From: Coriobacteriia bacterium
Lineage (GTDB): Bacteria; Actinomycetota; Coriobacteriia; Coriobacteriales; UBA8131
Direction: 5' to 3'
DNA length: 34,917 nt
NCBI GenBank assembly: GCA_009783245.1
Contig: WRHL01000011.1
Coordinates: 1 to 34,917 of the forward strand
The notes under the pieces are model-generated. The model worked only from the letters and a program-made list of their open reading frames with translations, was not told the DNA's origin and did not search any database. Both the position numbers and the translations under genes were made by a program. Positions 3,607-28,088 of the stretch are shown piece by piece (position 1 is the stretch's first letter; each line of letters opens with the position of its first letter).

Positions 3607-3697
3607 TAATAAGTAATAACGATAAGCACGCGTATGACTTAACCGGAGGAGTTTGAGGAAAAACGCAGGGTTAGGAAAAGCAAGGAGAGGGGTTGCC

Positions 3698-12600: not shown

Positions 12601-15600
12601 CGACGCCCTGCTCACCTCGACGGCTGGCTTCGATCCCAACGTGGAGGCAACCTACTATCCCATCACCTTCAGGATCGACGGCATACCGGCAACCGAGCAA
12701 AGCGTGGGCATCAGGGGAACGGTCTCCCAAGGCAAGCCCCCTGTCATCTACGCGCCCACACCGCTCCATGTCTGGATAGGCCCCGCGGCTGACAAGCCCG
12801 CAGGCGCCATCACCGCCGCTGAGTATGACGACTTCTACAACGTGACGGCAGATGACGAGGAGGACGGCGACCTGACCGCTGACGTCACCGTCACAGGCAC
12901 GGTGGACCTCACCACAGAAGGTGACTACAAGCTCACCTACGATGTGGTCGATAGTGACGGCAACCATCCCGTCAAGGTGACCACCCGCATGGTCATTGTC
13001 AACGAGGGCACCTATGAGGTGGGCACAGACCGCTACATGAGGGCCAACTCCTTTGTCATACTGCTCAAGGACGTCGCTTCAAGCCCCGCTGCCCGCGAGA
13101 CGCAGATACTGCTGAACTCCAGCGCTGCGGTCTACAACGGCGAGACCGGGGAGCCCATCTCCTCGACCGAGCTCTTCGTTGAAGACGACGACGGCTACGG
13201 ACCCATCGAGAAGATATTCAACGTCGTGATCGGTGCCGACGACACCGCCACCACCAGTATCTACAAGGGCATCGAAGTCGAGGTAGTGGACGCGGAGATC
13301 CACATCGAGGAGCCCGTCTACACCATGGTGGGCAACAACATCGAGATGGAGCTCTACGAGGCAACAGCCATACAGACCGCCGCTGACCGCGATAAGGCGC
13401 TCATCGACGCCATCGGTGGCCGTGCCTTCAAGGCCCTGCCCAACGGCACGCTGGATCACCTCACCGTGGTCATCAACAACGACGGCGGCTTCACCGATGC
13501 CGTAGGCACCTACTACGTGACGCTGGCTGATTCAGGCAACAACATCTCCTACGCCTTCCGCGTCAGGGTAGGCGCCACCGAGCTGCCTTGGATCGTGTTC
13601 GACTCCATGCCGCTGGCCTACGACTTCATCGAGGGCTCTGTGGACAACCTGACCCGCGACGACATCATGAAGGACGTCACCGCCTGGGCCAAGGACATCA
13701 CAGGCGCCACCTATGACCTGACCGACCGCATCATCATCAACCCCAACGCCTCAGGCGTTGAGGTACTGCCCACGATCCCGTGGGGCGAGGCCTCTGTGAC
13801 CCAGATCACCTACTCGGTGACCGGGGACAACGGCTTCACCACCACCGAGTCCCGCGCCCTTATCGTCAATGACGACTCCATCATCTTCGATCCCAACTAC
13901 ATCCTGCGTGGGCGCAGCTTCATCATCGAGGCTAAGGATGTCACCGGCGACCTCAACGAGCTTCTCCTGCTCAAGTCAGGCGCCAGGGCCTGGAAGTCAG
14001 ACGGCACGCCTGCCACAGCCATAGTGGCTGACACCGGCGGCTTCAAGGCCGAGCAAGGCGACTGGAACGTGCGTCTGGGCATTGCCGGCTACACGGCGCT
14101 GACCCGCAACATCACCGCCAAGGTGACCGATGGTATACCGGGCAACGGTGATCGCTACTCGATCCTCGCCTACAACTTCCGTATCAACGAGACCGACGCC
14201 GCTGCCCTGCAGGGTCTGTCCGGCGCCGCCTACGACTCCGTCTTCATCACCCGCGCCGGCGCGAAGAGCTATCTGCGCACCGATCCCGCGCTGCCGCTGG
14301 GCGGCACCGTGGCCATGACCAACGATGGCGGCTTCAAGACCTCCAGCTTCCTGCACAAGGGCGATGCCGGCTACCCGTCCACCTACTCCATCACCTTCTG
14401 GGTGGACGAGGACCATAGTGCGACCTGCACCATCACCATGAGCGTCGACAACGGCGATCCTCCGGTGATCTCGGCGCCCACGCGTATCATCTGGGTAGGC
14501 GATGGTCCTGCACCAGCAGGGATGATCCTGCCTTCAGAATGGTATGCATCAGGCGGTAAGATCGGTGTCTCCGTCTGGGATGACTACGACGCTGATGTAG
14601 CCAGCACCCTCAAGATAGGTTCCATGAGCACCGGTAGCTGGGTTGATGGCGACCCGCTCAAGATGACCGAGGATATGTACAACGTCTTCCAGGATGTCTC
14701 CTACTACGCAATCGACTTCGATGGCAATGAGACCATAGTGACCTCCAAGGTCATGGTTACACCCCAACCACTTGTTGGAGACTACCTGCTCATAGGCTAC
14801 AGCTTTGTGAAGCTGAAGGGCGATGTGGACACCGGCGATAGTGCAATCCTATTTGATACCCATGCTAAGCTCTGGCGCGTTGCGGCTACCGATCCAGTCC
14901 CGGTCGATGCCACGCACCTCCTGTATGTCGACACCAAGGGCGGCTACGCCGATGCCGTAGGTGAGTACACCATCCACCTCGAGTCTCTCACACCTGAGCC
15001 TGGCTATGAGGGTCACGTGGCCCGCGATTTCACCGCCAAGGTGGTCGAGCGCGATGCCATAGGTGACGGCTTCAACGCCTCCGGTGGCACCCGCTACACC
15101 GTGGTTGCCAGCAACGGCATGGTCAGCTGGGATGACCGCTTCCTGGTCACCGGCACCGGCACCGAGGCGACCTCTCGCCTTGTGGCTGCCGCTGGCGCCC
15201 TGGCCTGGCAGATACCCGACGCTTCGCTCAATAACTGGGGTGTTGTACTTGTGGACAATCCGATAGGGACCACATCGCCTTACGAGCCTAACGGCGTGTA
15301 CCCGGTCACCTTTGCCCCGGCAGGACAGCCGCATATCACCGTCACGGTGGACATCACGCTCTCCTCGGGCAACTACCCGGTCATCAGCTTCCAGCAAAAG
15401 CCGCTCGTGTTCAACCAGACCGCCACCTCCACGCCTATCACCACGGCGATGCTCAAGCAGTACATGACGGTCACCGACGTTGAGGACAATGCCCTTGGCA
15501 TTGACCTTATGCCTTTGACTAACGTCACGGTAGGCGCCGGCGGCATCACGCTTGACCAGCACAACCTGGGCGTGTGGAAGGTCACCTACACGGTTACCGA

Positions 15601-18600
15601 CACCCACAACAACACCACCACGGCCTACCGCGCCGTTGTCATCACCGACGGCCGCTATGAGTGGGACGAGGCAGATGACATCATCATCGGCGCCCGCGAC
15701 TACGTAGCCAAGAGCGGCGGCAGCTTCCAGGCCTCCGAAGGAGAGGCGCGGAGTATGTCGTATGCCGAGGCCTTCACCTTCATAGGCGACCTCATCCCCT
15801 CTGACCAGGTCACCTGGACCGGACGGCCCACGGGCTACACCGCAACGGCCGCCGAGGGCGACTATCCGATCACCTGGCAGGTGGACGGACGCACCAAGAA
15901 GAAGGACATCGTCGCGCACATCACCGAGGCCGAGGTCATCGATGTGGGCACCAAGGACTCCACCTATGCCATAGAGGCCTCAAGCTTCTGGGTCAACCAG
16001 GAGGACGCACGGGACATCCAGACCGCCGGGCAGCCGGGCTTCATCGCCGCTGCCAAGGTCAAGGTGACCAAACTCGTCCCCTCTGCGCCTGACCGCGACG
16101 CCCTGCTCACCTCGACGGCTGGCTTCGATCCCAACGTGGAGGCAACCTACTATCCCATCACCTTCAGGATCGACGGCATACCGGCAACCGAGCAAAGCGT
16201 GGGCATCAGGGGAACGGTCTCCCAAGGCAAGCCCCCTGTCATCTACGCGCCCACACCGCTCCATGTCTGGATAGGCCCCGCGGCTGACAAGCCCGCAGGC
16301 GCCATCACCGCCGCTGAGTATGACGACTTCTACAACGTGACGGCAGATGACGAGGAGGACGGCGACCTGACCGCTGACGTCACCGTCACAGGCACGGTGG
16401 ACCTCACCACAGAAGGTGACTACAAGCTCACCTACGATGTGGTCGATAGTGACGGCAACCATCCCGTCAAGGTGACCACCCGCATGGTCATTGTCAACGA
16501 GGGCACCTATGAGGTGGGCACAGACCGCTACATGAGGGCCAACTCCTTTGTCATACTGCTCAAGGACGTCGCTTCAAGCCCCGCTGCCCGCGAGACGCAG
16601 ATACTGCTGAACTCCAGCGCTGCGGTCTACAACGGCGAGACCGGGGAGCCCATCTCCTCGACCGAGCTCTTCGTTGAAGACGACGACGGCTACGGACCCA
16701 TCGAGAAGATATTCAACGTCGTGATCGGTGCCGACGACACCGCCACCACCAGTATCTACAAGGGCATCGAAGTCGAGGTAGTGGACGCGGAGATCCACAT
16801 CGAGGAGCCCGTCTACACCATGGTGGGCAACAACATCGAGATGGAGCTCTACGAGGCAACAGCCATACAGACCGCCGCTGACCGCGATAAGGCGCTCATC
16901 GACGCCATCGGTGGCCGTGCCTTCAAGGCCCTGCCCAACGGCACGCTGGATCACCTCACCGTGGTCATCAACAACGACGGCGGCTTCACCGATGCCGTAG
17001 GCACCTACTACGTGACGCTGGCTGATTCAGGCAACAACATCTCCTACGCCTTCCGCGTCAGGGTAGGCGCCACCGAGCTGCCTTGGATCGTGTTCGACTC
17101 CATGCCGCTGGCCTACGACTTCATCGAGGGCTCTGTGGACAACCTGACCCGCGACGACATCATGAAGGACGTCACCGCCTGGGCCAAGGACATCACAGGC
17201 GCCACCTATGACCTGACCGACCGCATCATCATCAACCCCAACGCCTCAGGCGTTGAGGTACTGCCCACGATCCCGTGGGGCGAGGCCTCTGTGACCCAGA
17301 TCACCTACTCGGTGACCGGGGACAACGGCTTCACCACCACCGAGTCCCGCGCCCTTATCGTCAACGATGACTCCATCATCTTCGATCCCAACTACATCCT
17401 GCGTGGGCGCAGCTTCTCCATCAACGTAGCCGACGTCACCGGCGACCTCAACGAGCTTCTCCTAATCGAGTCAGGCGCCAGAGCCTGGAAGTCCGACGGC
17501 ACGCCTGCCACAGCCATAGTGGCTGACACCGGTGGCTTCAAGGCCGAGAAGGGCAACTGGAACGTGCGTCTGGGCATTGCCACCTACACGGCCCTGACCC
17601 GCAACATCACCGCCCGGGTGACCGATGCCACCGTAGGCAACGGCGAGCGTTACTCGATCGAGGCCTATGACTTCCGTATCAACGAGGCTGACGCCGCTGC
17701 TCTGCAGGCAAAGATCGGCGCTGCCTACAACGCCGAGTTCATCACCCGCGCCGGTGCTGTCAGCTTCCTGCGTACCGAGCCCTCCTATCCGCTGGGCGGC
17801 ACCGTGGCCATGACCAATGACGGCGGCTTCAAGACCTCCAGCTTCCTGCGTGAGGGCGAGGCGGGCTACCCGTCCACCTTCTCCATCACCTTCTGGGTGG
17901 ATGAGGACCATAGTGCGACCTGCACCATCACCATGACGGTGTCGCAGGGCAACCACCCCTGGATCAAGGTCCCGGCGCTTAAGTCCGTTGCTATCGGCAG
18001 CGTCTTTGGGGATGAGCAGTACATGGAAGGCGTCACCTACGGGGACGTCGAAGATGACATAGCGCTGCTGTTGGTGACCTTCACAAGGACGGTCAATACG
18101 GCCGTCAGGGGCATCTACGAGGTCATCTACACCGTCACCGACACCGAGGGCAACTCTGCTTCTGCTAAAAGCTACGTGCTTGTGGGCTATGAGGTCGACG
18201 GCGACTACGGTGTCACTGCTGAGAACTTCGTGACCACAGTCAAGAACATCCAGGATGCTGCCTCGCTTGATGCGCTTATCCTAAGCCGCAGCCATGCTGC
18301 CGCGGTGCATGTGGTAAGGGATGCTGATGACAACGTCATAGGCATCGAGGACTGGCCTCCGGTAGTCAAGGACAACGCAGGCCTGACCGATGCGGTTGGC
18401 AGCTATGCACCCATCAAGATAGGCGTCGCAGAGCAGCCTTTGCCGATAGTCTCTATCACCGCACGCGTCATTGCCAAGGACGTGATCAGCAACGAGCCCG
18501 ACGATGACGGCGACGTCAACGACGAGAACACCGATGACCCAACCGACACCAACCGCTACATCGTGGCAGCCAACAACGTGACCATCTCTTGGGTGGAGGC

Positions 18601-21600
18601 AGGCGAGCTCGAGGGCAAGAGTGACGGCGTCACCAACGCCAGGCTCATCGCCTTAGCCGAGGCCGAGGCCATGCGCATCTCAAGCACAGGCACCTTCTCC
18701 GGCTTCACCGTTGCTGTCTCAGCGAACGGTATCGTGCAAGACGCCGGCGACTACGACGTCACCTTCATCCCGCTAGGCATAGGCGGCGTATCCGTCACCG
18801 TCACCTTCACGGTCTCAGATCATCCGCTGCCGGTCATCGGCATCACAGGGCCGCTGCGCATCCCGCAGACCACTTACTCCACCACCGTAAGCCGCACACA
18901 GCTGCTTACCGGTGTAACCGTAACCGACCCAGCATGTCCAACACTGAGCACCGCTGATCTGGTCATCACCGACAAGACCGGTGTGGCCCCTGTCATCAAC
19001 ACCGCACGTGCCGGTGTGACGCGGGTGACCTACACCATAGAAGACCTCGTCATCAAGAACCCCGACGGCACACCTGCCACGGTATCCGCCTCACGGGTGG
19101 TCATCATCAACGACGGGCGCTTCATAGAAGACGATGACAACGAGCTCCTCATCGGCGCCAAGAACTTTGTGGTGTCTGTCGACGACCTCACCTTCACCGG
19201 AAGCTTGGACGACGCGCTTCGCCTGTCATGGGCAGAGGCCTACAATTACGACGGCGATGAGATGGACATAGAGCTCATAGGCTCGCTGCCCGCCGGCTTC
19301 GCAGCCAAGGACATCGGCGTCTACAGCTTCACCTTTGGCATTGTGGGATATACCTCCCCGGTCATCACCATCACCGGTGAGATCGTGGATGCCGACGTCA
19401 TAGACGAAGGCGACGACCCCTACAACTCCAAGTACACGCTCATCGCCTCCAACTTCACCATGGATGTCGTTGACGCCGCCGCCATCACAGGCGACGCAGG
19501 GCTCATCGCAGCTGCTGGCGCCCGCGTCATCAAGGTGGTAGCCGGTGCGCCCGATGCCAGCGTGGTGGTACACGACAACGGAGGCTTCACGGCTCTCAAG
19601 GGCGTCTACCCGATCACCTTTGGTATCTCAGGCTACACCCAGGCTCAGCGCTCTGCGACCATCGAGGCCACACTGACCGACGACACGCCACCGACAATCT
19701 CCTTCAGCTCACCTCTCAAGCTCGCCTTGAACTCCACGTGGGACCGTACGGCCGCCATGTTCGAGGTCATAGCATTCGACTTGGGCGATGGGGACATCAC
19801 CAGCTTAGTGACCTACTTTGACAAGGATCCCGCGAACCCGGTCGATACCTCTAAGGACGGCTCACGCTACACGGTGGTCTACACGGTCACCGACTCTGAC
19901 GGCAACACCGTGGAGAAGGAGCGTAGCGTGGTTGTAGGCGACCGCTTCATATTCGGTGAGTACGTCTACATGGAGGCCAGCTCCTTTGTCATCCTACTGA
20001 GTGATGTGCCGGCTAACGCCACCGCGATACGCCCGCACCTCATCGCCATGACCGATGCCCATGTCTATGACAACGAGACCGGAGCCGAGCTTCCCCAAAG
20101 CCTGCTCTCCATCACAAGCACCGGTGGCTACTCCAGGACCGAAGGCGAGTACGACATCATCGTTGCCGCCAAAGACGGCCCGACGGCCACCATCTCCAAG
20201 TCCGTCAAGGGCCGCGTGGTGGATGCCGACGTCATAGACGACGAGCCGCTTGACCCGGATGACCCATCAGGCTCCAAGGTCTATGTCTATGGCAAGAACA
20301 TCACGCTGCGCATAGCAGAGGCTGCCGCTCTCACCAGTGACGCCGACCTGCTCAAGGCGCTTAAGGCCGGGGCCTTCCTCACCGATGTCAACGACCCCAA
20401 GGGCAACCTGACCGCACAGTCTGTCATCATCACCGACAAGGGTGGCTTTAAGGCGACCCCAGGCGTCTACAAGGTCAAGGTGGCCGACGTCGAAAGCCTC
20501 TGCGAGATCGAGCTGACCATCACGGTCACAAACGGCAACGCACCTGTCATAACCCCGCAGAAACCGGTCATAGTACCGATCTCTGACAGGGGAGGCACCC
20601 TAACCGATGCCCAGAAGAAGGGCGAGGCTACGGCCTTTGACATTGAGGACGGCAACCTGACCTCGAAGATAGAGGTGATAGGCTCCGTGCCTGCCAACGT
20701 GGCCGGTGTCTACCAGGTCACCTTAAAAGTCACCGACTCTGACGGCAACGAGGTCCAGGAGAAGGTCGCGGTAGTGGTAGATGACGGCAACTTCGTCTAC
20801 GGCGACGAGTACATCTTGTACGCGAAAGACTTCACCATCGATGCTGCTGACGTGGACAACGCCAGAAAGACCACCCAGATCCTTGCCCAGACCGGCGCCT
20901 ATGCCTTCAAGAACGATGGCACAGCGGCCCGCGTCGCCGTAAGCGACATAGGTGGTTACCAGGACAAGGCCGGCGTCTACCGCCCGAGGGTCTATGTGGT
21001 AGAGCTTCCCGCCTTGACCAACCAGGTGGCGGCTACTGTCACCACGCCTGCCGTCATGTGGCGCGTGAGCTTCAACGGCAACGGTGGCTACCTTACCGGT
21101 CCGAGCGGCATCTATGTGGCGGAGCCCTCCACCACCATAGGCTACCTGCCCTCCTCACCTGTCCGTACCGGCTACGAGTTCTTGTACTGGTCCACCTCAC
21201 CGACCGGTGGGGCCCAGTTCACGCCTGACTACCCGGTAACGCGGAACATGACGGTATATGCCCAGTGGTCCAAGATCCCCGATCCGGTACCACCGGTCAC
21301 CAACGTGTACCCGCCCAACGTGACGGTGTACCCGCCCAACGTCTACACGAGCTCGCCTGGTGTCACCGTGACCACGCCTCCTGCGAACACCTATGTGACC
21401 GTAGAGGCGCCCGCGACGCCCACCACGCCGCCCGCCGAGGAGCCCAAGCCTCTTGAGATCCCCGAGGATGAGGCACCTAAGGGTATCACCGAGGGACCGA
21501 CCACACACTGGTCACTGTTCAACGTGATCGCCGTGATCGTATCGCTACTGCTCGCCCTGCTCTTCCTGCTGCGCTTCTTCATGGATCGCCGCAAGGACGA

Positions 21601-22003
21601 CACCTATGACGAGGAGGCCATCGACTGGGCAAGCCTGTCAGCCATGACACCTGAGCGTCGCGCGGCCGTCCTGGCCCGCCTCGAGGAGGACCGTCAGGCA
21701 CAGCTCGACAGGCAGCGCGCACAGGAACGCAAGGAGCGGAGCTTCTACGTGAACGCACCGGCGCTCCTGATAGTGGCAGCAGCCTTTATCGAGGCGTTGA
21801 TCATCCTTCTGACCACGTCAGACTTCTATGCTCCACAGGTCATCACGGATAGCTATTCTGTCCCGCTGTCACTGATAGTGCTGGTGCAGCTGGCAGTCCC
21901 GATGATCGCAGCCATGCTGCGCAACCGTGGCAAGGGTAGCAGTGGTACCGGCACCGCCGGCACCACCCTCCCTCCGCAAGACGTTAGCGCCCCCACCGCC
22001 TAG
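3698..22003 (+). CDS. Giant secreted Ig-repeat surface protein (~6,101 aa)
   Basis: Predicted cell-surface adhesin or scaffold. The ATG at 3698 is preferred because AAGGAGAGG precedes it by about 8-10 nt; a TTG at 3653 in the same frame has its SD too close. Residues 1-46 look like a signal peptide (RILSVLVTISLIVMF... ending SSFA-D). An acidic Gly/Pro linker follows, then from about residue 127 to 700 an Asn/Gly-rich region resembling pectate-lyase-like beta-helix adhesin domains. From about 1,000 to 5,780 there are 16 units of roughly 300 residues. Each has an Ig-like DUF5011-type domain (signature G-x-Y-x-V-x-Y-x-V-x-D-S-D-G-N) plus two smaller related beta domains starting A-x-x-F-x-V. An InlB B-repeat lies at about 5,788-5,857 (WRVSFNGNGG...TVYAQW), then a Tyr/Pro/Val/Thr linker. 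Three membrane helices (about 5,940-5,962, 6,019-6,041, 6,055-6,075) enclose a charged cytoplasmic loop. No LPXTG motif was seen. Ligand unknown. Confidence 0.9.
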   Translation: MSSKKRVTSHKNQIRKPGIPKRILSVLVTISLIVMFPMTGLSSFADEIIAPPEGMVEYGGDEGEPTGDDPGEGGLGDLGETILGEPPGGFIDIFGLEGELELGEPPAAGPIEIMPLGGPIGGDNTRVTVDNWAELVAAVGNPVVVYIEFSTNIARTGGDTAGNDLPAINRSLTINGDGKTLDLRGSSTTIARKTFQLNNGAPAGSQFTLQNIDIIRPNGGTSQLISAFTTNTTANSNSNASGTGASWTVNLHNVDGNAAGPAPSGGIVTIPGGSVNVTGNLTWDNSPNSTGGDQAIINARYQTYDAAKVFIKGNNTGTTNGLVCAQHNDNSASNIRGSWIKVINGADVYIENTTRADTSTIIVGNYGVGSVAEIFVDNATLEVHGNESGYDYRGVISLWGESSAGGQGGGGINITNGGVLKAYDDNPSGGITILQRIESGQFNVSGEGSELYAISNTHTSGYAGTVRFYLVGNQELNISDKAKVTIIKRTPATGSNNGDCPAIRFGTGTGNSFTVTGGATVEIINDGGTGAASTTASSLNAKAAIAYAANNWSFEISGEKSSVKLYAAKGAAVAAGGQNNGSITLGKGAIFIAEGNINDTRDVAATNGIFTTGTNFTFSADEPLYYDFANMSPNSQVRVFSVGSGSSLSSKNSDLAVWGNGNNRDGSGNGGTNSSNNPISGNPARSWSLVTYTLSGTNMATLASPDTPYLSSVPRDPDGQINFGNQGMRPYRRISGNNATPAFQEIERLTNADKFVRVIGVVPEGLEEPRPLWDGEVFGRFEITHNGTTSLSQPGETVSLRDESIYTVETGVDNLEGVLRYTKPGGEFLYPGDKYELISAWRGVEDTYPVSPRVHVAIPEELPQYAATVEDVLPPVPAGITTPNNNKMWIGVTSEIKGTWTPNQALAEPHNPEPAVKIYAVVNSADNVITEGGSTVYGTLNGDGTWEYTVPASALSSLSEGDEVYFILEDANGNANPLVDTAIRDTTKLAAPYLTVSQPDLALTAKDAVIGLIEAREIAALGQNNPAQFEALKDLINAQATKSTETTLREIVEVSECDPYWDNVDYYDRDEFALAHPTGKIYTVKYQAVDDPTIYKYATVKVEPTETAYIDAHDFTMSVNNAITMMSKSQPARDAQLIAEAEAKARKLLTDTEWSSDNVEVISVSIPDPAMMTAGDYAVTFHVKDMPDAKEYKVTIIAHIIPGNVPVIEIDGPILVWIGDPAEPFISDTPSGNRPDGSILPSELTDAKYKEGVRAWDSFGSSFDITDRITYDASAVDLTKRGLYSVRYTVTNDDDNTATAYRVVSVGIVIWDDGYGLDATSFVKNIDAINASEAAILADSRAYAFKIDESDPSGFTSATARLVSPGLYGTGSPVGTYPVTLGVVGSTNTLVIDAVVVKKDKITDADNPVDNIRYTIAANDVTITVPEAAGFSGMDPDVQLKLINESVAEAWRLETRSTHLGSASYPLTSLDSAGVFVVSNNIPASGGSAGDSYTVTFGIKDVPSIRVQVTYLLFGTPPVITFLEEPLVIKFQDSASAHNLTDTEMKAEMTVIDAEDGDIRLTSKTTYTVNGSPTATINTGNVGVYKVVYTAIDSDGMDATATRAIVIDDGRFEIDKVNGVILGAKNFVAMSKDVNGSLGQVRNWSRAVAFEIDGTTINATEVVVTPFPPAGYTVPCPEGEYKFTWMVTGYPTTKTITGYITDADVIFPGGDNDQYAMTANHFQVNTADANAMMGPGLNAALIAKSEVKVIKLVDSADNAIPFVIATGGFGPTEADYPLAFGAWNTVKDSAVLTSPSTRVDPIGTVSDGNRPVITLSTPIEVWIGETAAPAGAITREQYEAVLGDMYGVTADDVEDGDLTDEVIVSFVPPTTAVDLNTPGIYKLKFDVQDSDFQWAISKYRVVVVNDGSYKVGNGRILYARSFVTRLTDVGANINNDILDKSQAKLFDGTYGNEIGLAGNISDIYPGSYGPSKGIHNITIEAHDSPSGTISKTIVGEVTDATVVGPDIPPPYGSVTWVFGTPAKQTVVEAETTAALGAAEVIEVLQASASKYLANGTRVSPPPAVKIFEDTDNYLTTFTTGTKAMGIYRFIISDVDEVTKINLTIQVGSGYDDLFISATPKPLAIDMPVAAGSIDGSGNLTHAKLMEGVVATDVKEIDTGNPTGDVRDLVTISIVDAETDAGVSYIPADKAGIYRVTYSYEDENYLTVSDTRAVFVNDGRYVYDSSYILKALNYVVPYSVANGSSTEILTLSEARAWDTNGQPRSASVNDNGGYTRMPGDYTAIVIQVQGYGTLQKTIQAKVLDDRSTAVPNTNSNGANGESTSVVAHNFRINVIDANAHAGKAITDPAAYRELFFTKSELAFYDRTALSFGTASVTRAMTSDGGFATSGALTQGQQFTITFACPEDPDASTTITVFIDNGQPPVITAPIRIIWVGEGPAPAGTIMPSDWTGSGGKIGVTVTDDYDMDIQSKLKIGSMSTGSFVEGDPLKMTEDMYNVWQDVSYSATDSDYNTTVETFKVMLTTFPLYGDYLPMGYSFVKLKGSVDTSNTTIMTDSYAKLWRVAATDPDPVDVTELLYVDTKGGYTDAVGDYTIHFESGTPQVGYTGHAVMDLTAKVVERDAIGDGFNTAGGIRYTVVASNGLVDLKDADLVRNGAGTAETLLVTAAGALAWQIPDSRLYFWGVTVVDNPIGTTGYEIKPNGVYPVTFAPVGQPHITVTVDITLSSGNYPVISFQQKPLVFNQTATSTPITTAMLKQYMTVTDVEDNALGIDLMPLTNVTVGAGGITLDQHNLGVWKVTYTVTDSDKNTTTAYRAVVITDGRYEWDEADDIIIGARDYVAKSGGSFQASEGEARSMSYAEAYTFIGDLIPSDQVTWTGRPTGYTATAAEGDYPITWQVDGRTKKKDIVAHITEAEVIDVGTKDSTYAIEASSFWVNQEDARDIQTAGQPGFIAAAKVKVTKLVPSAPDRDALLTSTAGFDPNVEATYYPITFRIDGIPATEQSVGIRGTVSQGKPPVIYAPTPLHVWIGPAADKPAGAITAAEYDDFYNVTADDEEDGDLTADVTVTGTVDLTTEGDYKLTYDVVDSDGNHPVKVTTRMVIVNEGTYEVGTDRYMRANSFVILLKDVASSPAARETQILLNSSAAVYNGETGEPISSTELFVEDDDGYGPIEKIFNVVIGADDTATTSIYKGIEVEVVDAEIHIEEPVYTMVGNNIEMELYEATAIQTAADRDKALIDAIGGRAFKALPNGTLDHLTVVINNDGGFTDAVGTYYVTLADSGNNISYAFRVRVGATELPWIVFDSMPLAYDFIEGSVDNLTRDDIMKDVTAWAKDITGATYDLTDRIIINPNASGVEVLPTIPWGEASVTQITYSVTGDNGFTTTESRALIVNDDSIIFDPNYILRGRSFIIEAKDVTGDLNELLLLKSGARAWKSDGTPATAIVADTGGFKAEQGDWNVRLGIAGYTALTRNITAKVTDGIPGNGDRYSILAYNFRINETDAAALQGLSGAAYDSVFITRAGAKSYLRTDPALPLGGTVAMTNDGGFKTSSFLHKGDAGYPSTYSITFWVDEDHSATCTITMSVDNGDPPVISAPTRIIWVGDGPAPAGMILPSEWYASGGKIGVSVWDDYDADVASTLKIGSMSTGSWVDGDPLKMTEDMYNVFQDVSYYAIDFDGNETIVTSKVMVTPQPLVGDYLLIGYSFVKLKGDVDTGDSAILFDTHAKLWRVAATDPVPVDATHLLYVDTKGGYADAVGEYTIHLESLTPEPGYEGHVARDFTAKVVERDAIGDGFNASGGTRYTVVASNGMVSWDDRFLVTGTGTEATSRLVAAAGALAWQIPDASLNNWGVVLVDNPIGTTSPYEPNGVYPVTFAPAGQPHITVTVDITLSSGNYPVISFQQKPLVFNQTATSTPITTAMLKQYMTVTDVEDNALGIDLMPLTNVTVGAGGITLDQHNLGVWKVTYTVTDTHNNTTTAYRAVVITDGRYEWDEADDIIIGARDYVAKSGGSFQASEGEARSMSYAEAFTFIGDLIPSDQVTWTGRPTGYTATAAEGDYPITWQVDGRTKKKDIVAHITEAEVIDVGTKDSTYAIEASSFWVNQEDARDIQTAGQPGFIAAAKVKVTKLVPSAPDRDALLTSTAGFDPNVEATYYPITFRIDGIPATEQSVGIRGTVSQGKPPVIYAPTPLHVWIGPAADKPAGAITAAEYDDFYNVTADDEEDGDLTADVTVTGTVDLTTEGDYKLTYDVVDSDGNHPVKVTTRMVIVNEGTYEVGTDRYMRANSFVILLKDVASSPAARETQILLNSSAAVYNGETGEPISSTELFVEDDDGYGPIEKIFNVVIGADDTATTSIYKGIEVEVVDAEIHIEEPVYTMVGNNIEMELYEATAIQTAADRDKALIDAIGGRAFKALPNGTLDHLTVVINNDGGFTDAVGTYYVTLADSGNNISYAFRVRVGATELPWIVFDSMPLAYDFIEGSVDNLTRDDIMKDVTAWAKDITGATYDLTDRIIINPNASGVEVLPTIPWGEASVTQITYSVTGDNGFTTTESRALIVNDDSIIFDPNYILRGRSFSINVADVTGDLNELLLIESGARAWKSDGTPATAIVADTGGFKAEKGNWNVRLGIATYTALTRNITARVTDATVGNGERYSIEAYDFRINEADAAALQAKIGAAYNAEFITRAGAVSFLRTEPSYPLGGTVAMTNDGGFKTSSFLREGEAGYPSTFSITFWVDEDHSATCTITMTVSQGNHPWIKVPALKSVAIGSVFGDEQYMEGVTYGDVEDDIALLLVTFTRTVNTAVRGIYEVIYTVTDTEGNSASAKSYVLVGYEVDGDYGVTAENFVTTVKNIQDAASLDALILSRSHAAAVHVVRDADDNVIGIEDWPPVVKDNAGLTDAVGSYAPIKIGVAEQPLPIVSITARVIAKDVISNEPDDDGDVNDENTDDPTDTNRYIVAANNVTISWVEAGELEGKSDGVTNARLIALAEAEAMRISSTGTFSGFTVAVSANGIVQDAGDYDVTFIPLGIGGVSVTVTFTVSDHPLPVIGITGPLRIPQTTYSTTVSRTQLLTGVTVTDPACPTLSTADLVITDKTGVAPVINTARAGVTRVTYTIEDLVIKNPDGTPATVSASRVVIINDGRFIEDDDNELLIGAKNFVVSVDDLTFTGSLDDALRLSWAEAYNYDGDEMDIELIGSLPAGFAAKDIGVYSFTFGIVGYTSPVITITGEIVDADVIDEGDDPYNSKYTLIASNFTMDVVDAAAITGDAGLIAAAGARVIKVVAGAPDASVVVHDNGGFTALKGVYPITFGISGYTQAQRSATIEATLTDDTPPTISFSSPLKLALNSTWDRTAAMFEVIAFDLGDGDITSLVTYFDKDPANPVDTSKDGSRYTVVYTVTDSDGNTVEKERSVVVGDRFIFGEYVYMEASSFVILLSDVPANATAIRPHLIAMTDAHVYDNETGAELPQSLLSITSTGGYSRTEGEYDIIVAAKDGPTATISKSVKGRVVDADVIDDEPLDPDDPSGSKVYVYGKNITLRIAEAAALTSDADLLKALKAGAFLTDVNDPKGNLTAQSVIITDKGGFKATPGVYKVKVADVESLCEIELTITVTNGNAPVITPQKPVIVPISDRGGTLTDAQKKGEATAFDIEDGNLTSKIEVIGSVPANVAGVYQVTLKVTDSDGNEVQEKVAVVVDDGNFVYGDEYILYAKDFTIDAADVDNARKTTQILAQTGAYAFKNDGTAARVAVSDIGGYQDKAGVYRPRVYVVELPALTNQVAATVTTPAVMWRVSFNGNGGYLTGPSGIYVAEPSTTIGYLPSSPVRTGYEFLYWSTSPTGGAQFTPDYPVTRNMTVYAQWSKIPDPVPPVTNVYPPNVTVYPPNVYTSSPGVTVTTPPANTYVTVEAPATPTTPPAEEPKPLEIPEDEAPKGITEGPTTHWSLFNVIAVIVSLLLALLFLLRFFMDRRKDDTYDEEAIDWASLSAMTPERRAAVLARLEEDRQAQLDRQRAQERKERSFYVNAPALLIVAAAFIEALIILLTTSDFYAPQVITDSYSVPLSLIVLVQLAVPMIAAMLRNRGKGSSGTGTAGTTLPPQDVSAPTA
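10961..14458 (+). repeat. Large in-gene tandem duplication, unit 1
   Basis: Four Ig-type units (signatures near residues 2497, 2792, 3075 and 3367). The block is repeated immediately downstream with an offset of 3,495-3,498 bp. By eye, 12280-13869 is base-for-base identical to 15775-17364, while the outer parts have diverged at many positions. Confidence 0.85.
14459..17953 (+). repeat. Large in-gene tandem duplication, unit 2
   Basis: Second copy of the four-unit block (signatures near residues 3663, 3957, 4240 and 4532). It differs from unit 1 mainly in its first third and in the last about 580 bp. A further partial echo of the unit boundary (the GGTVAMTNDGGFKTSSFL segment) lies at its end. 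Confidence 0.85.
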
Positions 22004-22257: not shown

Positions 22258-22767
22258 ATGAGAAAAAGAGCGATTGCCCTTGTTATGGCTATAGTGATGG
22301 TCTTTGGTACGGCCGGTGTGCTGGCAGCCTGCGGCAAGAGCAATGGACAGGCGCCCCCGCAACCATCCGCCGTAAAGGAGATCAAGACCGGCAAGCAGGT
22401 CTCAGGAAACGTGACTTTCACCAACTACTCGGTGATCATCACCGCGGAGACCGACTGGGCAGCCATGTCGGAAAGCGACAAGCAGAAGGTCATAGACTAC
22501 GCATTCTCAGAGGTCTATAGGCTGAACGCGGAAAACGATGTGAGGAACTACAACGTCATTGGCACCACCGAGACGGGTGAGGGCCTGTTCATCCTGGACC
22601 ACGACAACCACAATGTGGTTATCTATGCCAACGGCTCAAAGGCTGGCACGCTGGAGATCCCTGAGAATAAGGCCAAAGCGGCCACCACGCCTGCCACCAC
22701 ACCTGCCACCACCACTCCCGAGCCCGAGGATCAGGGCGCGGACGACGGCGAGGGCGAAGACGGGTAA
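22258..22767 (+). CDS. Small secreted lipoprotein, copy 1
   Basis: 169-aa predicted lipoprotein. A lipoprotein signal peptide (MRKRAIALVMAIVMVFGTAG) ends in the lipobox VLAAC, with Cys25 as the expected acylated residue. The mature protein has one domain of about 100 residues (about 36-135; conserved blocks SGNVTFTNYSVIIT, DWAAMSESDKQKVIDYAF and AGTLEIPEN). A Thr/Pro-rich, then acidic Glu/Asp/Gly tail follows. I do not recognise the domain. The protein is highly similar to the product of 23987-24493. It lies 254 bp downstream of the giant gene, behind that gene's terminator and with its own promoter, so it is probably a separately transcribed partner of the surface locus. GGGGA lies a few bases before the ATG. 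Confidence 0.85.
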   Translation: MRKRAIALVMAIVMVFGTAGVLAACGKSNGQAPPQPSAVKEIKTGKQVSGNVTFTNYSVIITAETDWAAMSESDKQKVIDYAFSEVYRLNAENDVRNYNVIGTTETGEGLFILDHDNHNVVIYANGSKAGTLEIPENKAKAATTPATTPATTTPEPEDQGADDGEGEDG

Positions 22768-23937: not shown

Positions 23938-23986
23938 TATCGTGAATGCTCTTTTATGGCAAAACATGAATTGTGAGGGAGGGGAT

Positions 23987-24493
23987 ATGAAGAAGAGGAT
24001 TCTTGCCCTTGTTATGGTTCTGATATTGGCCCTGGGCGCGGCTGGCGTGCTTGTGGCCTGCGGTGACACCAACGGGCTGCCGCCCGCGAAGCCCGCTGCT
24101 GTGAAGGAGATCAAGACCGGCAAGCAGAAATCTGGCAATGTGACCTTTACTAATTACTCGGTGATCATCACCGCTGACACCGACTGGGCAGCCATGTCGG
24201 AAAGCGACAAGCAGAAGGTCATAGATTACGCCTTCTTTGAGGTTTATAGGATGAGCGCGGAAAACGACGTGAGGTACTACAACGTCTTGGGCACAAGCGA
24301 GGACGGTAATGTCCTGTTCATGTACGACCGCGATAATAACAACGTCATTATCTATAGCAACGGCCAGAAGGCCGGAACACTGGAGATACCTGAGAACAAG
24401 AACAAAGCGGCCACCACACCTGCCACCACCACTCCCGAGCCCGAAGACCAGGGTGTGGACACCGGTGACGGCCAGGGTGAAGGCGAGGAGTAA
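23987..24493 (+). CDS. Small secreted lipoprotein, copy 2
   Basis: 168-aa paralogue of the product of 22258-22767, aligned almost without gaps until a shorter Thr/Pro tail. The signal peptide ends in the lipobox VLVAC with Cys25 as the expected lipidated residue. The domain at about 36-135 keeps the blocks SGNVTFTNYSVIITA and DWAAMSESDKQKVIDYAF. The tail is acidic (PEPEDQGVDTGDGQGEGEE). The ATG at 23987 is chosen because GGGAGGGG lies just upstream; an in-frame ATG at 23942 would add 15 residues before the signal peptide. Function unknown. The duplication with its own copy of the promoter points to a tandem duplication of the 3' end of the surface locus. Confidence 0.85.
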   Translation: MKKRILALVMVLILALGAAGVLVACGDTNGLPPAKPAAVKEIKTGKQKSGNVTFTNYSVIITADTDWAAMSESDKQKVIDYAFFEVYRMSAENDVRYYNVLGTSEDGNVLFMYDRDNNNVIIYSNGQKAGTLEIPENKNKAATTPATTTPEPEDQGVDTGDGQGEGEE

Positions 24494-24540: not shown

Positions 24541-25476
24541 TCAGAGTTCAAGTTGCTCGAAATCAGTGATGAGCATGGTGTTGTTAACAGCTTGTAGCTG
24601 GTAGATGAAGATGGTCTTATGCGCGACGGGCCAACCGCTGGATTCTCCGTCAGTGCGGAGTGTGTAATTGGCTTGCACAATGAGGTAGTAGTTGGGGCCG
24701 TTGTGAAGGATCTCCCCAAAGGCCAGACGGTGGTATTCGATCTGTGAATCCGGAGCCAGGTTGGCGAGCTTAACCCGCGCCTTACTACCAAAGGCGATTG
24801 TGGAGAATATTGCCGGATCACCGGAGTTGAGGTAGTTGACCAAGGTGGCGTTGAAAGCCAGGGTCTGCCGGACAATCAGCTCATCATAGAGAAGAACGGG
24901 TCCCTGCGAGGAAGAAGCCTCCTGAAAGAGGTTGTTCTCGATAGGCTTGAGGCTGGAGAGGTCGATGAAGCCGATGTCTGTGCCGTTGAGGCTGGCAAAG
25001 CTGAGATCGGTGTCAAAGCCGATGGTGGAGATGTTCCTTTGCGGGTCGGCATCAAGCTGATTGGAGATGAGCGCGAAGGGATCCGTATGCGGAGGCATGT
25101 CTGCGGTGGCTGTGTTGGCGCCCTGCAACTGCCAGAGACCCAGGATAGCGAAGTCGAAGACGAGAAGGACAAGGAAGAGCCCCAGCAAAAACCGCCTGGA
25201 GAAGCGTTGTGAACGGTGACGGCGGGCTTTCTTTAGCCTTGTGGTAGGCCGCCTTTCAGCTGGACGTGTCGCTCGCGAAGTGCGCGCCGCGAGTGTGGGG
25301 CGCTGCGTTTGCCTGGTGCGTGAGTTGTGTGCCGATTGCGTGGCGGACCTGGCGCTGGCGCCGTTTGAACGTATGGATGAGGTGCGGGTACTGCGAGCCG
25401 AAGAAGGGATAGTTTCCCGGGCTCCCCTGACAGGTGGCATAGTCCACCTAGCTTGAAATATCGCCTGCGCCCCCAT
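24541..25476 (-). CDS. Single-pass membrane protein, paralogue of 2653 gene
   Basis: 311-aa protein of unknown function. The N-terminal 95 residues are strongly basic and Ser/Arg/Thr-rich, probably cytoplasmic and disordered. A membrane helix follows at about 97-116 (LLGLFLVLLVFDFAILGLW) and then an extracellular domain of about 195 residues. That domain is homologous to the one encoded at 2653-3606: shared pattern ISNQL / ISSQL, a G-F/Y-I-x-x-x-x-x-x-L-x-P-x-x-N-N segment, AFNA, and the C-terminal DFEQLEL versus EIEQIKL. GAGGA lies a few bases before the ATG at 25476. It points toward the two lipoprotein genes (convergent with them), with only 47 bp between the ends. It may work with the surface proteins, but nothing in the sequence proves this. 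Confidence 0.75.
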   Translation of the reverse strand: MGAQAIFQARWTMPPVRGARETIPSSARSTRTSSIRSNGASARSATQSAHNSRTRQTQRPTLAARTSRATRPAERRPTTRLKKARRHRSQRFSRRFLLGLFLVLLVFDFAILGLWQLQGANTATADMPPHTDPFALISNQLDADPQRNISTIGFDTDLSFASLNGTDIGFIDLSSLKPIENNLFQEASSSQGPVLLYDELIVRQTLAFNATLVNYLNSGDPAIFSTIAFGSKARVKLANLAPDSQIEYHRLAFGEILHNGPNYYLIVQANYTLRTDGESSGWPVAHKTIFIYQLQAVNNTMLITDFEQLEL

Positions 25477-25587
25477 GATTCCTCACCGAACAGGAAATAG
25501 CTGAAAGACATACTATTTCACTTGTGATAGTAGCAGAGGAAGGCCGTATCCGCAATATGTTGCGGTATTAGAGGGACAAAAGGAGCG

Positions 25588-25664
25588 GTGTAAGACAGAA
25601 TAGGGACGGTTCTTTTTTGGCCTTTCATAGGCCACAATAGAACCGTCGCCATTCTGTCTTACAC
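25588..25664. repeat. Long palindromic core element
   Basis: Arms of 26 bp (starting GTGTAAGACAGAATAGGGAC) match with two mismatches. The centre holds a second small inverted repeat GGCCT/AGGCC. The GGGACGGTT core links it to the family, but the outer arms (GTGTAAGACAGAAT) are unique to this site. It sits between two divergent genes. Confidence 0.75.
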
Positions 25665-25690
25665 AGCCTTACACAGCTCAAAAACAGTGC

Positions 25691-25719
25691 TTGCGTCGAA
25701 CAGGCGTTCGGTGTATAGT
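25691..25719 (+). promoter_or_regulatory. SOS promoter with LexA box
   Basis: The -35-like TTGCGT (25691-25696) and -10 TATAGT (25714-25719) are separated by 17 nt. Lying over the spacer is TCGAACAGGCGTTCGG (25696-25711), matching the Gram-positive/actinobacterial LexA operator pattern TCGAAC-N4-GTTCGA at all but the last base. LexA bound here would block RNA polymerase directly. Confidence 0.8.
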
Positions 25720-25768
25720 AGTGCAAACAAATGTTCGACTTTAAGAAAGGTAGCTGGGAGGAGTCAGG

Positions 25769-25909
25769 ATGAGAGAGGCATTGCGTAGCGAGAGTTCCCG
25801 CGGCATCACCCTGCAGGGGGTCACTTTTGGGCAGAAGCTCTTCTCCTCAACGGTTGCCGGTGTGATAACTGTTCTCCTGGTTGTCATCCCAAGTCTCTTC
25901 AGCGTATAG
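25769..25909 (+). CDS. 46-aa SOS-controlled membrane peptide
   Basis: A small gene directly downstream of the LexA-box promoter. GGGAGGAG lies 5 nt before the ATG at 25769, which is ideal spacing. The product starts MREALRSESSRGITLQG and has a single hydrophobic helix at about residues 26-45 (STVAGVITVLLVVIPSLFSV) reaching almost to the C-terminus. The N-terminal half is polar and basic, so N-in topology is likely. Known LexA-controlled peptides with one membrane helix are either division inhibitors (SidA of Caulobacter, YneA of Bacillus, DivS/ChiZ-type in Actinobacteria) or depolarising toxins (TisB). I see no specific sequence match to any of these, so the function is inferred from promoter and topology only. 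It is followed by nrdR and dut on the same strand, whose products act in nucleotide supply. Confidence 0.7.
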   Translation: MREALRSESSRGITLQGVTFGQKLFSSTVAGVITVLLVVIPSLFSV

Positions 25910-25924
25910 AGCCTCTCAGTTGAT

Positions 25925-25940
25925 ACACAAGATATAGTGT
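25925..25940 (+). promoter_or_regulatory. Candidate NrdR box before nrdR
   Basis: ACACAAGATATAGTGT matches the NrdR-box consensus (ACACWATATATWGTGT) at all but one position. It overlaps a TATAGT hexamer and sits 37 bp before the nrdR start, so it could give autoregulation. Only one box is visible; NrdR sites usually occur as pairs. Confidence 0.5.
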
Positions 25941-25976
25941 GGTACCCTCATGAAGACGACAAGAAATGGGGGTCCG

Positions 25977-26423
25977 ATGCGCTGTATATCCTGTGGTTAC
26001 CTCGAATCAAAGGTTGTGGATTCCCGGCCATCTGAGGATGGCTCTTCCATCCGTAGGAGGCGGGAGTGCCTTAAATGCGGTAAGCGCTTCACAACCTATG
26101 AGCGACAGAATGAGTCACCTCTGATAGTGATAAAGAATGATAAGAGCTCGGAGCCCTTTGACCGCACCAAGTTATTACGCGGGTTACTTATAGCCACAGC
26201 GAAGCGCGATGTGCCTGCTACTGCGCTGGAGTCTCTGATAGATGACGTAGAGACCGAGATCCGCAACACCATGAAGAACGAGGTCCGCTCCAAGAAGCTT
26301 GGCGAAATGGTCCTTGGACGCCTGCGCGAGATAGATGACGTCGCCTATATCCGTTTTGCTTCTGTGTACCGCGATTTCAAGGACATCGATGAGTTCCAGA
26401 AAGCCCTGAAGGGTATGAATTAG
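25977..26423 (+). CDS. nrdR: Transcriptional repressor NrdR
   Basis: 148-aa NrdR, the zinc-finger/ATP-cone repressor of ribonucleotide reductase genes, which senses ATP/dATP in the cytoplasm. The N-terminal zinc ribbon has Cys3-x2-Cys6 (MRCISC) and Cys31-x2-Cys34 (CLKCGKRFTTYER). The ATP-cone domain covers about 49-139 (PLIVIKNDKSSEPFDRTKL ... VAYIRFASVYRDF). The ATG at 25977 is preferred over the in-frame ATG at 25950 because NrdR proteins begin MRC-x-x-C. It is separated from dut by one base, so the two are surely co-transcribed. A possible NrdR box lies upstream, and the SOS peptide gene precedes it by 67 bp. Confidence 0.96.
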   Translation: MRCISCGYLESKVVDSRPSEDGSSIRRRRECLKCGKRFTTYERQNESPLIVIKNDKSSEPFDRTKLLRGLLIATAKRDVPATALESLIDDVETEIRNTMKNEVRSKKLGEMVLGRLREIDDVAYIRFASVYRDFKDIDEFQKALKGMN

Positions 26424-26424
26424 T

Positions 26425-26871
26425 ATGGCGGATGCCCTGCGGGTCTGTATCCAGCGACTTTACGAGGATATACCCCTTCCTTCCTATGCCTATGAGGGAG
26501 ACGCAGGCCTTGACCTGCGCGCTGCCTGCGACTGTACATTGCCTCCAGGTGGGCGGGCGCCTATCCCAACCGGGATAAAGATCGCCATACCTCAGGGGTA
26601 CGCGGGCTTTGTATTGCCGCGAAGTGGTCTTGCGATCCGCGCGGGCCTTTCGCTGGTGAACACCCCGGGGCTCATAGACAGCCAATTCCGTGGCGAGGTG
26701 ACGGCGCTTGCCATCAACCATGACACAACTGAGTCTATAATTATCAAGAAGGGCGAACGTATCGCCCAGCTTGTCATACTGCCCGTGCCTCAGGTGGAGC
26801 TTGTAGAGAGCGTAGAGCTTGATAAAACCACACGCAACGAGAAGGGCTTTGGCAGTAGCGGCGCAGGATAA
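26425..26871 (+). CDS. dut: Deoxyuridine 5'-triphosphate nucleotidohydrolase
   Basis: 148-aa trimeric-type dUTPase, converting dUTP to dUMP plus pyrophosphate. This keeps uracil out of DNA and supplies dUMP for thymidylate synthesis. All five signature motifs are present: I DAGLDLRA (26-33), II PRSGLA (65-70), III NTPGLIDSQFRGEV (79-92, catalytic Asp85), IV RIAQLVI (112-118) and V RNEKGFGSSG (137-146). Length is normal. The start codon is one base after the nrdR stop, so translation is likely coupled. With nrdR, dgt and the upstream SOS peptide it gives the neighbourhood a dNTP-pool theme. Confidence 0.97.
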   Translation: MADALRVCIQRLYEDIPLPSYAYEGDAGLDLRAACDCTLPPGGRAPIPTGIKIAIPQGYAGFVLPRSGLAIRAGLSLVNTPGLIDSQFRGEVTALAINHDTTESIIIKKGERIAQLVILPVPQVELVESVELDKTTRNEKGFGSSGAG

Positions 26872-26894: not shown

Positions 26895-28088
26895 ATGGAT
26901 TGGGACGGTTTTTTCAGGGATAACCTCACGCCGGTCATGGCCTATCAGCCTGGTCTGCGTGAAGAGCAGATACGCGAGAAGGTAGAAGTCGATAGCATCT
27001 ACAAGCTCTCCTCCAATGAGAGCCCTCTGCCACCCTTCCCCTCGGCGCTAGCGGCCATACAGGAGAGACTTGCTCTGCTCAACGAGTATCCGGAGGGTTC
27101 CTGCTATCGGCTTGTGCAGCTACTGTCGCAGCATTACGGCATTCCCGCTGAGCAGGTCATAGTGGGCAACGGCTCCAATGAGCTCATCGACCTTATCGCC
27201 ACCACCTGCCTTGAACCGGGCGATAACGTGGTCTATTGCTGGCCCTCCTTTGTGGTCTACCGCTCCAGCGCCCAGATCGCCGGTGCCCAGCGTCGCGAGG
27301 TTCCTCTGGCTGCAGACGGCTCCTTTGACCTTGCTGCCCTTTTGGCGGCTATTGACGAGAAGACCAAGCTGGTCTTTATCTGCACTCCCAACAATCCTAC
27401 GGGTGCGGCAGTAGGGCGGGCGGCGTTCGAGGCATTCCTTGAGCAGGTTCCCAGTCATGTGCTGGTAGTGGTGGACGCTGCCTATGAGGAGTTCCTCGAC
27501 GATGAGCAGGCGGATGGACAGGCGGATGAGCAGGCAGTCAGGCCGGCGGATGGACAGGCGGTCAGGCTGGCGGATGGACAGGCGGTTGGACAGGCGGTCA
27601 GGCTGGCGGATGGACAGGCGGTCAGGCCGCTTGACTACTATGATGGCGTCAGGCCCTATGTGGTACTGCGTACCTTCTCCAAGATCTACGCCCTGGCCGG
27701 GCTGCGTTGCGGCTACGGCTTTGCTCCGGCGCCTCTTGTGGACATGTTGCACAAGGTGCGCGAGCCCTTCAACGTCAACACGCTGTCGCAGGTTGCCGCA
27801 GAGGCCTGCTTTGAGGATATCGCTGAGATACAAAAGCGCGTTGCCTTGAATGCTGCCGGCAAGAAGCAGCTACAGGCCTGCTTTGAAAAGCTGGGACTTG
27901 TGACCTATCCCTCGCAGGCGAACTTCATCTGGGTCGAGGTGCCAGACCCGCCCGCTACCTTTGAAGCCCTGCTGAAAAAGGGGGTCATCGTGCGCCCCTT
28001 CCCCGGTGCACAGGGCCTGCGCGTTGGCATCGGTGACGCCCAAGGCGTTGCCGCGACAATATGCGCCTTCACTGAGCTGTTTGGGTAG
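26895..28088 (+). CDS. hisC: Histidinol-phosphate aminotransferase
   Basis: 397-aa class I/II PLP-dependent aminotransferase of the HisC type. It makes histidinol phosphate from imidazole-acetol phosphate and glutamate; relatives also transaminate aromatic keto acids. Seen: KLSSNESP (37-44), NGSNELI (92-98), NNPTG (166-170), VVDAAYEEF (192-200, with Asp194 for the PLP ring nitrogen) and the PLP lysine Lys263 in TFSKIYALAGLRCGYG. Residues 203-246 are a low-complexity insert (ADGQAVRL units) not expected in HisC, placed between the Asp and Lys motifs; it raises the length above the usual roughly 350-360 aa. AAGGAAG precedes the ATG by 8 nt. It lies between dut and tyrA, so a role in tyrosine/phenylalanine transamination is also plausible. 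Confidence 0.93.
   Translation: MDWDGFFRDNLTPVMAYQPGLREEQIREKVEVDSIYKLSSNESPLPPFPSALAAIQERLALLNEYPEGSCYRLVQLLSQHYGIPAEQVIVGNGSNELIDLIATTCLEPGDNVVYCWPSFVVYRSSAQIAGAQRREVPLAADGSFDLAALLAAIDEKTKLVFICTPNNPTGAAVGRAAFEAFLEQVPSHVLVVVDAAYEEFLDDEQADGQADEQAVRPADGQAVRLADGQAVGQAVRLADGQAVRPLDYYDGVRPYVVLRTFSKIYALAGLRCGYGFAPAPLVDMLHKVREPFNVNTLSQVAAEACFEDIAEIQKRVALNAAGKKQLQACFEKLGLVTYPSQANFIWVEVPDPPATFEALLKKGVIVRPFPGAQGLRVGIGDAQGVAATICAFTELFG
27501..27632 (+). repeat. 24-bp tandem repeat inside hisC
   Basis: Roughly four to five imperfect copies of a 24-bp unit (GCGGATGGACAGGCGGTCAG plus four bases) encode ADGQAVR-L/P. The block is in frame and shows internal shortening (ADGQAVGQAVRL), typical of slippage. 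Confidence 0.85.

Follow-up and report, generated by a model that had tools for sequence, protein, structure and literature searches.

The proven SOS division inhibitors of Gram-positive bacteria are single-pass proteins encoded near lexA; among the proteins so described, SosA of S. aureus and DivS of C. glutamicum are reported to be without a LysM domain (PMC6851548). YneA of B. subtilis reaches FtsW via its helix and requires its LysM domain to block wall synthesis; without that domain division is not blocked (PMC13396833). For M. tuberculosis, inference of a regulatory network assigned the entire Rv2719c-nrdR-Rv2717c operon to LexA control (PMC4181829), and SidA of C. crescentus is a 29-aa inner-membrane peptide which interacts with FtsW (PMC4211646). 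Our search of the literature for an SOS division inhibitor in Coriobacteria found no description of one.

We analysed a contig of 34,917 nucleotides from a Coriobacteriia bacterium (the whole of this stretch is called the window here), in which a first-pass annotation had pointed to an undescribed, SOS-controlled 46-aa membrane peptide. The window's nearest named relatives are MAGs of the Coriobacteriales, the order to which Eggerthella, Collinsella and Olsenella belong; these MAGs presumably come from termite guts. On re-reading, the promoter, operator, Shine-Dalgarno sequence (SD) and frame of the first-pass annotation were all present at the correct coordinates (Table 1). The claim of a LexA operator between -35 and -10 elements at a spacing of 17 was borne out, the operator being a perfect palindrome in a spacer of exactly 17 bp within a promoter of sigma-70 type, and the SD is indeed a good one; a second operator, 27 bp from the first, had been missed. 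The stop-free open frame around the 46-mer is only 51 aa long, therefore the protein cannot be much longer than 46 aa.

Table 1. Coordinates of the peptide gene, its control elements and its neighbours in the window
Feature	Position	Strand	Remark
Promoter, -35 TTGCGT (25691-25696), 17-bp spacer, -10 TATAGT (25714-25719)	25691..25719	+	read from sequence
LexA operator 1, CGAACAGGCGTTCG, perfect palindrome	25697..25710		fills promoter spacer; kept in homologues
LexA operator 2, CAAACAAATGTTCG	25724..25737		directly 3' of -10, over expected transcription start
Shine-Dalgarno GGAGG	25757..25761	+	7 nt 5' of ATG; read from sequence
Peptide gene, 46 aa, MREALRSESSRGITLQGVTFGQKLFSSTVAGVITVLLVVIPSLFSV	25769..25909	+	ATG at 25769; TAG ends 25909
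Putative nrdR promoter, TTGATA, 17 bp, TACCCT	25920..25948	+	NrdR box ACACAAGATATAGTGT at 25925-25940 in spacer
nrdR	25950..26423	+	ATG at 25977 a possible start codon; orthologues in relatives
dut (dUTPase)	26425..26871	+	translation; same gene order in relatives
Dispersed inverted repeat, REP/MITE-like hairpin	25585..25667		ends 24 bp 5' of promoter

The hairpin upstream of the promoter is a neighbour, lying outside the peptide gene. Its arms are 39 nt long with a complementarity of 87%, and strand-wise matching finds it 69 times in the genome, at some 35 places; because several of these copies stand at contig ends, the repeat probably breaks the assembly. Further upstream, a minus-strand gene (24541-25476), divergent from that of the peptide, encodes a membrane-anchored protein of unknown function, and genes resembling it stand upstream of the peptide at five homologous loci (L003, L004, L005, L006 and L009). 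A repetitive surface-type protein of 6116 aa, encoded at 3653-22003 in the window, contains long internal repeats that are nearly identical and has a membrane region at its C-terminus; two similar, tandem, small lipoprotein-like genes (22258-22767 and 23942-24493) lie 3' of its gene. On the other side of nrdR-dut, a hisC-like aminotransferase gene (26895-28088) contains a series of DGQAVRLADGQAV-type repeats in frame; a repeat has apparently expanded within this enzyme.

Within the window the pattern CRAACN4GTTCG is found at the two operator places only, while 100 shuffles gave 0.06 matches on average and none of them reached 3; the two-box unit had no match in any shuffle of the window. Counted over the 2-Mb genome, the 10-base palindrome shows no enrichment (9 sites versus 12 for the reversed control), and since it is thus no commoner than its control, we rejected genome-wide rarity as an argument that the operator is meaningful. 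The case for the operators rests on their placement, pairing and conservation, together with LexA sites before SOS genes in the same genome. Such sites stand directly upstream of recA (C12:32040), ruvC (C12:27604), dinB (C62:8226) and lexA (C81:4436), the first three genes being named from a reading of their translations and lexA found by its model; these sites fix the LexA motif of the organism, and both peptide boxes fit it. Among the 14 homologous loci without a locus-specific promoter rearrangement, 12 (L002-L011, L013 and L014) have a LexA box in a promoter spacer of 17-18 bp. In the homologues a second box stands 27-30 bp from the first, giving two or three boxes per locus, and most have SDs comparable to GGAGG.

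When the frame was followed into relatives, as the first-pass annotation had proposed, its conservation held, with 16 loci and purifying selection. Among the 33 searched genomes of the window's family, these 16 loci fall in 15 genomes, representing 10 of the family's 19 genera. The homologues are 43-49 residues long (in one genus, two genomes have forms of 99-101 residues, L013 and L014) and are 27-55% identical to the window peptide. In all 66 compared pairs pN is below pS (medians 0.40 versus 0.76), which shows purifying selection in every pair, at the amino-acid level and over the whole frame. The peptide frame holds no stop among the homologues, where the two alternative frames have 46 and 12, and codon position 2 is the least variable in it; across 12 sequences P41 is invariant and K23, G12 and A30 are near-invariant. 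More diverged peptides of 45-51 aa, with the same build and paired boxes, are present in five genomes (G006, G012, G014, G024 and G025). About half of the family is without a detectable copy, with several genera empty at this place (for example g3, g6 and g14), these MAGs being incomplete. No convincing homologue was found in 268 further genomes of the order; weak matches outside the family, in three genomes (E 2.6e-4 to 8e-4), were treated as chance.

It could be argued that a frame of 46 codons is short, and that a palindrome which alone is not enriched genome-wide might fall beside it by accident. Against a chance frame with a chance operator stand the conservation, the selection and the paired operators; we consider such a coincidence scarcely credible, and the presence of conserved copies in 15 genomes refutes it. 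The homologues, the selection and the conserved two-operator promoter thus support the claim of an undescribed, and also unannotated, 46-aa membrane peptide, and it is very likely, judged from sequence, that the gene is real and under SOS control.

The membrane helix which the first-pass annotation had placed at the C-terminus of the frame was borne out by AlphaFold2, which predicts a short N-terminal helix and a helix over residues 20-44, with pLDDT of about 90-95 over the helix core; hydropathy gives a single membrane helix in the homologues. Positive charges are found only N-terminal to the helix, residues 24-46 being without charge, hence the N-terminus should be inside; in this model the topology should be N-in/C-out with nothing outside the membrane. 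The frame ends where the helix ends, both in the window and in every short homologue, leaving no extracellular C-terminal part. Conserved A30, L37 and P41 lie on one side of the helix, a periodicity that is weakly significant (p=0.036).

Such an architecture raises the second possibility offered by the first-pass annotation, next to a stop of division: depolarisation of the membrane, as by TisB. An SOS-induced toxin of the TisB/DinQ kind would lower membrane potential and ATP and bring damaged cells into dormancy. TisB and DinQ of E. coli are, like the 46-mer, short SOS-controlled membrane peptides, so that LexA control, shortness and the single helix would all fit, and DinQ is a 27-aa single-pass SOS peptide which depolarises the membrane (PMC3567139). 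However, they are depolarising members of type I toxin-antitoxin systems whose loci carry antisense RNAs (PMC3567139), and they differ from the 46-mer in locus context and in helix character. In a comparison with Rfam no known antisense family was matched, the only matches being spurious microRNA ones to the upstream hairpin. The helix of the peptide, uncharged from residue 24 onwards, is not amphipathic in the manner of TisB, whose helix has charged residues and is amphipathic. Furthermore, homologues of the peptide adjoin lexA, where YneA-like proteins sit. We consider a depolarising role unlikely, and of the two functions named in the first-pass annotation it is division inhibition that we favour, because the relatives place the peptide by lexA, in a slot where other Coriobacteriales have LysM-bearing YneA/ChiZ-like proteins.

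This slot was read in genomes of ten Coriobacteriales families (f1-f10). Its order across Coriobacteriales is a lexA gene, LexA boxes from which lexA diverges, a gene X in the opposite direction, and nrdR; most of the ten families have two or three LexA boxes at a spacing of about 28 bp, then the small membrane protein X, then nrdR. In many relatives of the window lexA is divergent from and adjacent to the peptide gene, the box cluster being common to both, and nrdR-dut comes next; the genome of the window itself has its lexA on a different contig (C81). A LysM or LysM-like domain is the norm at the C-terminus of X in three families (f3, f5 and f10), while in f1, f2, f4, f6, f7, f8 and f9, as in a single genome of f5 (G083), no LysM was seen and X ends at or near the helix. 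The LysM slot proteins of these other families match PF01476 with E of 2.6e-10 to 1.1e-7, and those scanned against the YneA model NF010723 scored 48.8-51 bits, below its curated cut-off of 60 bits. The 46-mer itself has no match to NF010723, no Pfam match to a LysM domain (which is confined to slot proteins of other families), and no match in Pfam, NCBIfam or PHROGs as a whole; the shortest slot members match no Pfam or NCBIfam model. In a tree of NrdR, LysM and LysM-less slots split in two groups (SH-aLRT 98) and the LysM state changes twice overall. The domain was therefore lost or gained a single time at depth, apart from one or two exceptions where the tree is poorly resolved. One contig (L177, G027:C25:14000-33900) carries two diverged lexA-peptide-nrdR-dut-hisC sets about 14 kb apart with their neighbours doubled; either the module was truly duplicated or the assembly is chimeric.

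The profile of the peptide matches LysM-less X proteins from other families in their C-terminal module, with hhalign probabilities of 83.5% and 94.5% (E 8e-6 and 7e-8), against 1.5% for the reversed control; the aligned module reads LR-x-G-S-x-x-G followed by the helix. LysM-less and LysM X proteins match each other in their N-terminal profiles (89-93% probability), a match that was 4% in a first, small comparison and became significant only with more sequences, and they share a GTSAL-like N-terminal motif (20 of 23 LysM-less and 14 of 15 LysM forms; shuffles reach at most 3). The 46-mer has neither this motif nor the N-terminal region and corresponds to the C-terminal module only; the relatives of 99-101 aa in its own family have both the GTSAL region and the module. 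Directly compared with the LysM forms, the peptide profile gives 5%. The chain appears to run in two links, with the GTSAL motif joining LysM-less to LysM forms and the C-terminal module joining the 46-mer to the LysM-less ones. Descent of the 46-mer from the same lineage as the slot proteins is likely on these alignments, and among the X proteins of the Coriobacteriales lexA-X-nrdR slot we read it as the shortest kind. It stands outside the YneA family in the strict sense, as a minimal form of a known kind of protein.

YneA of B. subtilis and ChiZ (Rv2719c) of M. tuberculosis resemble the peptide in LexA control, in the single helix and in a gene beside lexA; the order Rv2719c-nrdR is the same as peptide-nrdR (PMC4181829), and the LysM relatives in the peptide's slot match the YneA model, though below cut-off. 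In contrast to both proteins the peptide is far shorter, is without LysM or any extracellular part, and has no direct sequence match to them. SosA and DivS are likened to it by description, as LexA-controlled, single-pass, LysM-less proteins encoded near lexA (PMC6851548), but they have a predicted extracellular C-terminal part whereas the peptide ends at the helix. Closest to the 46-mer in design, again by description, is SidA, a LexA-controlled short membrane peptide whose host is an alphaproteobacterium, a lineage distant from Coriobacteriales.

We propose that in undamaged cells LexA on both operators would block RNA polymerase; upon DNA damage, active RecA would cause LexA self-cleavage, and a burst of peptide would enter the membrane with its charged N-terminus inside. 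Less certainly, the helix could then bind the septal cell-wall synthase (FtsW and partners) in the membrane and delay septation until repair is done, in the way proposed for SidA, SosA, ChiZ and YneA. Because the peptide is without a LysM domain, it would not hold nascent glycan strands as proposed for YneA and would act by helix-helix contact alone, in a more SidA-like way. FtsW/RodA-type proteins are present in the window's genome. The best explanation, which we hold with moderate confidence, is an SOS-induced division inhibitor cut down to a cytoplasmic tail and one helix: by analogy, inhibition of division by the 46-mer is probable, and FtsW contact as its mechanism is a reasoned guess to be taken as tentative.

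Counting against division inhibition, a helix-only relative might have changed its function, and the YneA helix without LysM is not inhibitory (PMC13396833), unlike the role proposed here for the peptide. The lack of a known family match for the peptide, the missing copies in about half of its family and the weak significance of the conserved helix side weigh against it as well. As function is not readable from sequence, and as loss of LysM may mark a change of role in a type of protein where YneA needs that domain, the peptide could be an SOS membrane peptide that has no action on division and some other target, such as the nucleoid, a protease or an envelope stress factor. We think this rather unlikely, in view of LexA control, linkage to lexA and nrdR, and a single-pass form that match proven division inhibitors (PMC6851548; PMC4181829).

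The first-pass annotation had also found the position before nrdR-dut meaningful, and here the link is weaker than was claimed: nrdR has its own putative promoter, and the linkage is dispensable in relatives. The NrdR box matches 15 of 16 positions of the NrdR-box consensus ACACWATATATWGTGT, and most relatives have a similar element. Since this NrdR-box promoter sits between the peptide and nrdR, nrdR-dut can probably be transcribed independently, with possible read-through during SOS. The peptide and its LexA boxes are kept in G017, G007, G022 and G004, in which nrdR lies at a distance of 1-2.6 kb or on a different contig; in G007 (L007) a DNA-methyltransferase-like gene and a partner stand between the peptide and nrdR. 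In the window the peptide frame lies 40 bp 5' of the nrdR frame on the same strand, as would suit a regulatory leader or upstream frame whose translation tunes nrdR-dut while the peptide itself is inert. A leader would, however, have to be reconciled with a putative nrdR promoter and NrdR box 3' of the peptide, with loci where the peptide and LexA boxes persist away from nrdR, and with amino-acid-level selection across the whole frame; these largely refute it, and we rejected it as very improbable.

Returning to an SOS division inhibitor, the slot presents a natural series of one gene, from LysM through LysM-less to bare-helix forms. It is possible, though we would advance it only tentatively, that a LysM-bearing, lexA-linked inhibitor was pared down within one order, with LysM lost or never gained, the conserved N-terminal region lost thereafter in the family of the window, and the bare helix still able to halt septation through contacts in the membrane alone. 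If true, a YneA/ChiZ-like mechanism would here have turned, in nature, into a SidA-like one. The series makes it testable whether a helix is enough to block the septal synthase or whether LysM is needed, as in B. subtilis YneA, and the peptide offers a candidate SOS division checkpoint for Coriobacteriales.
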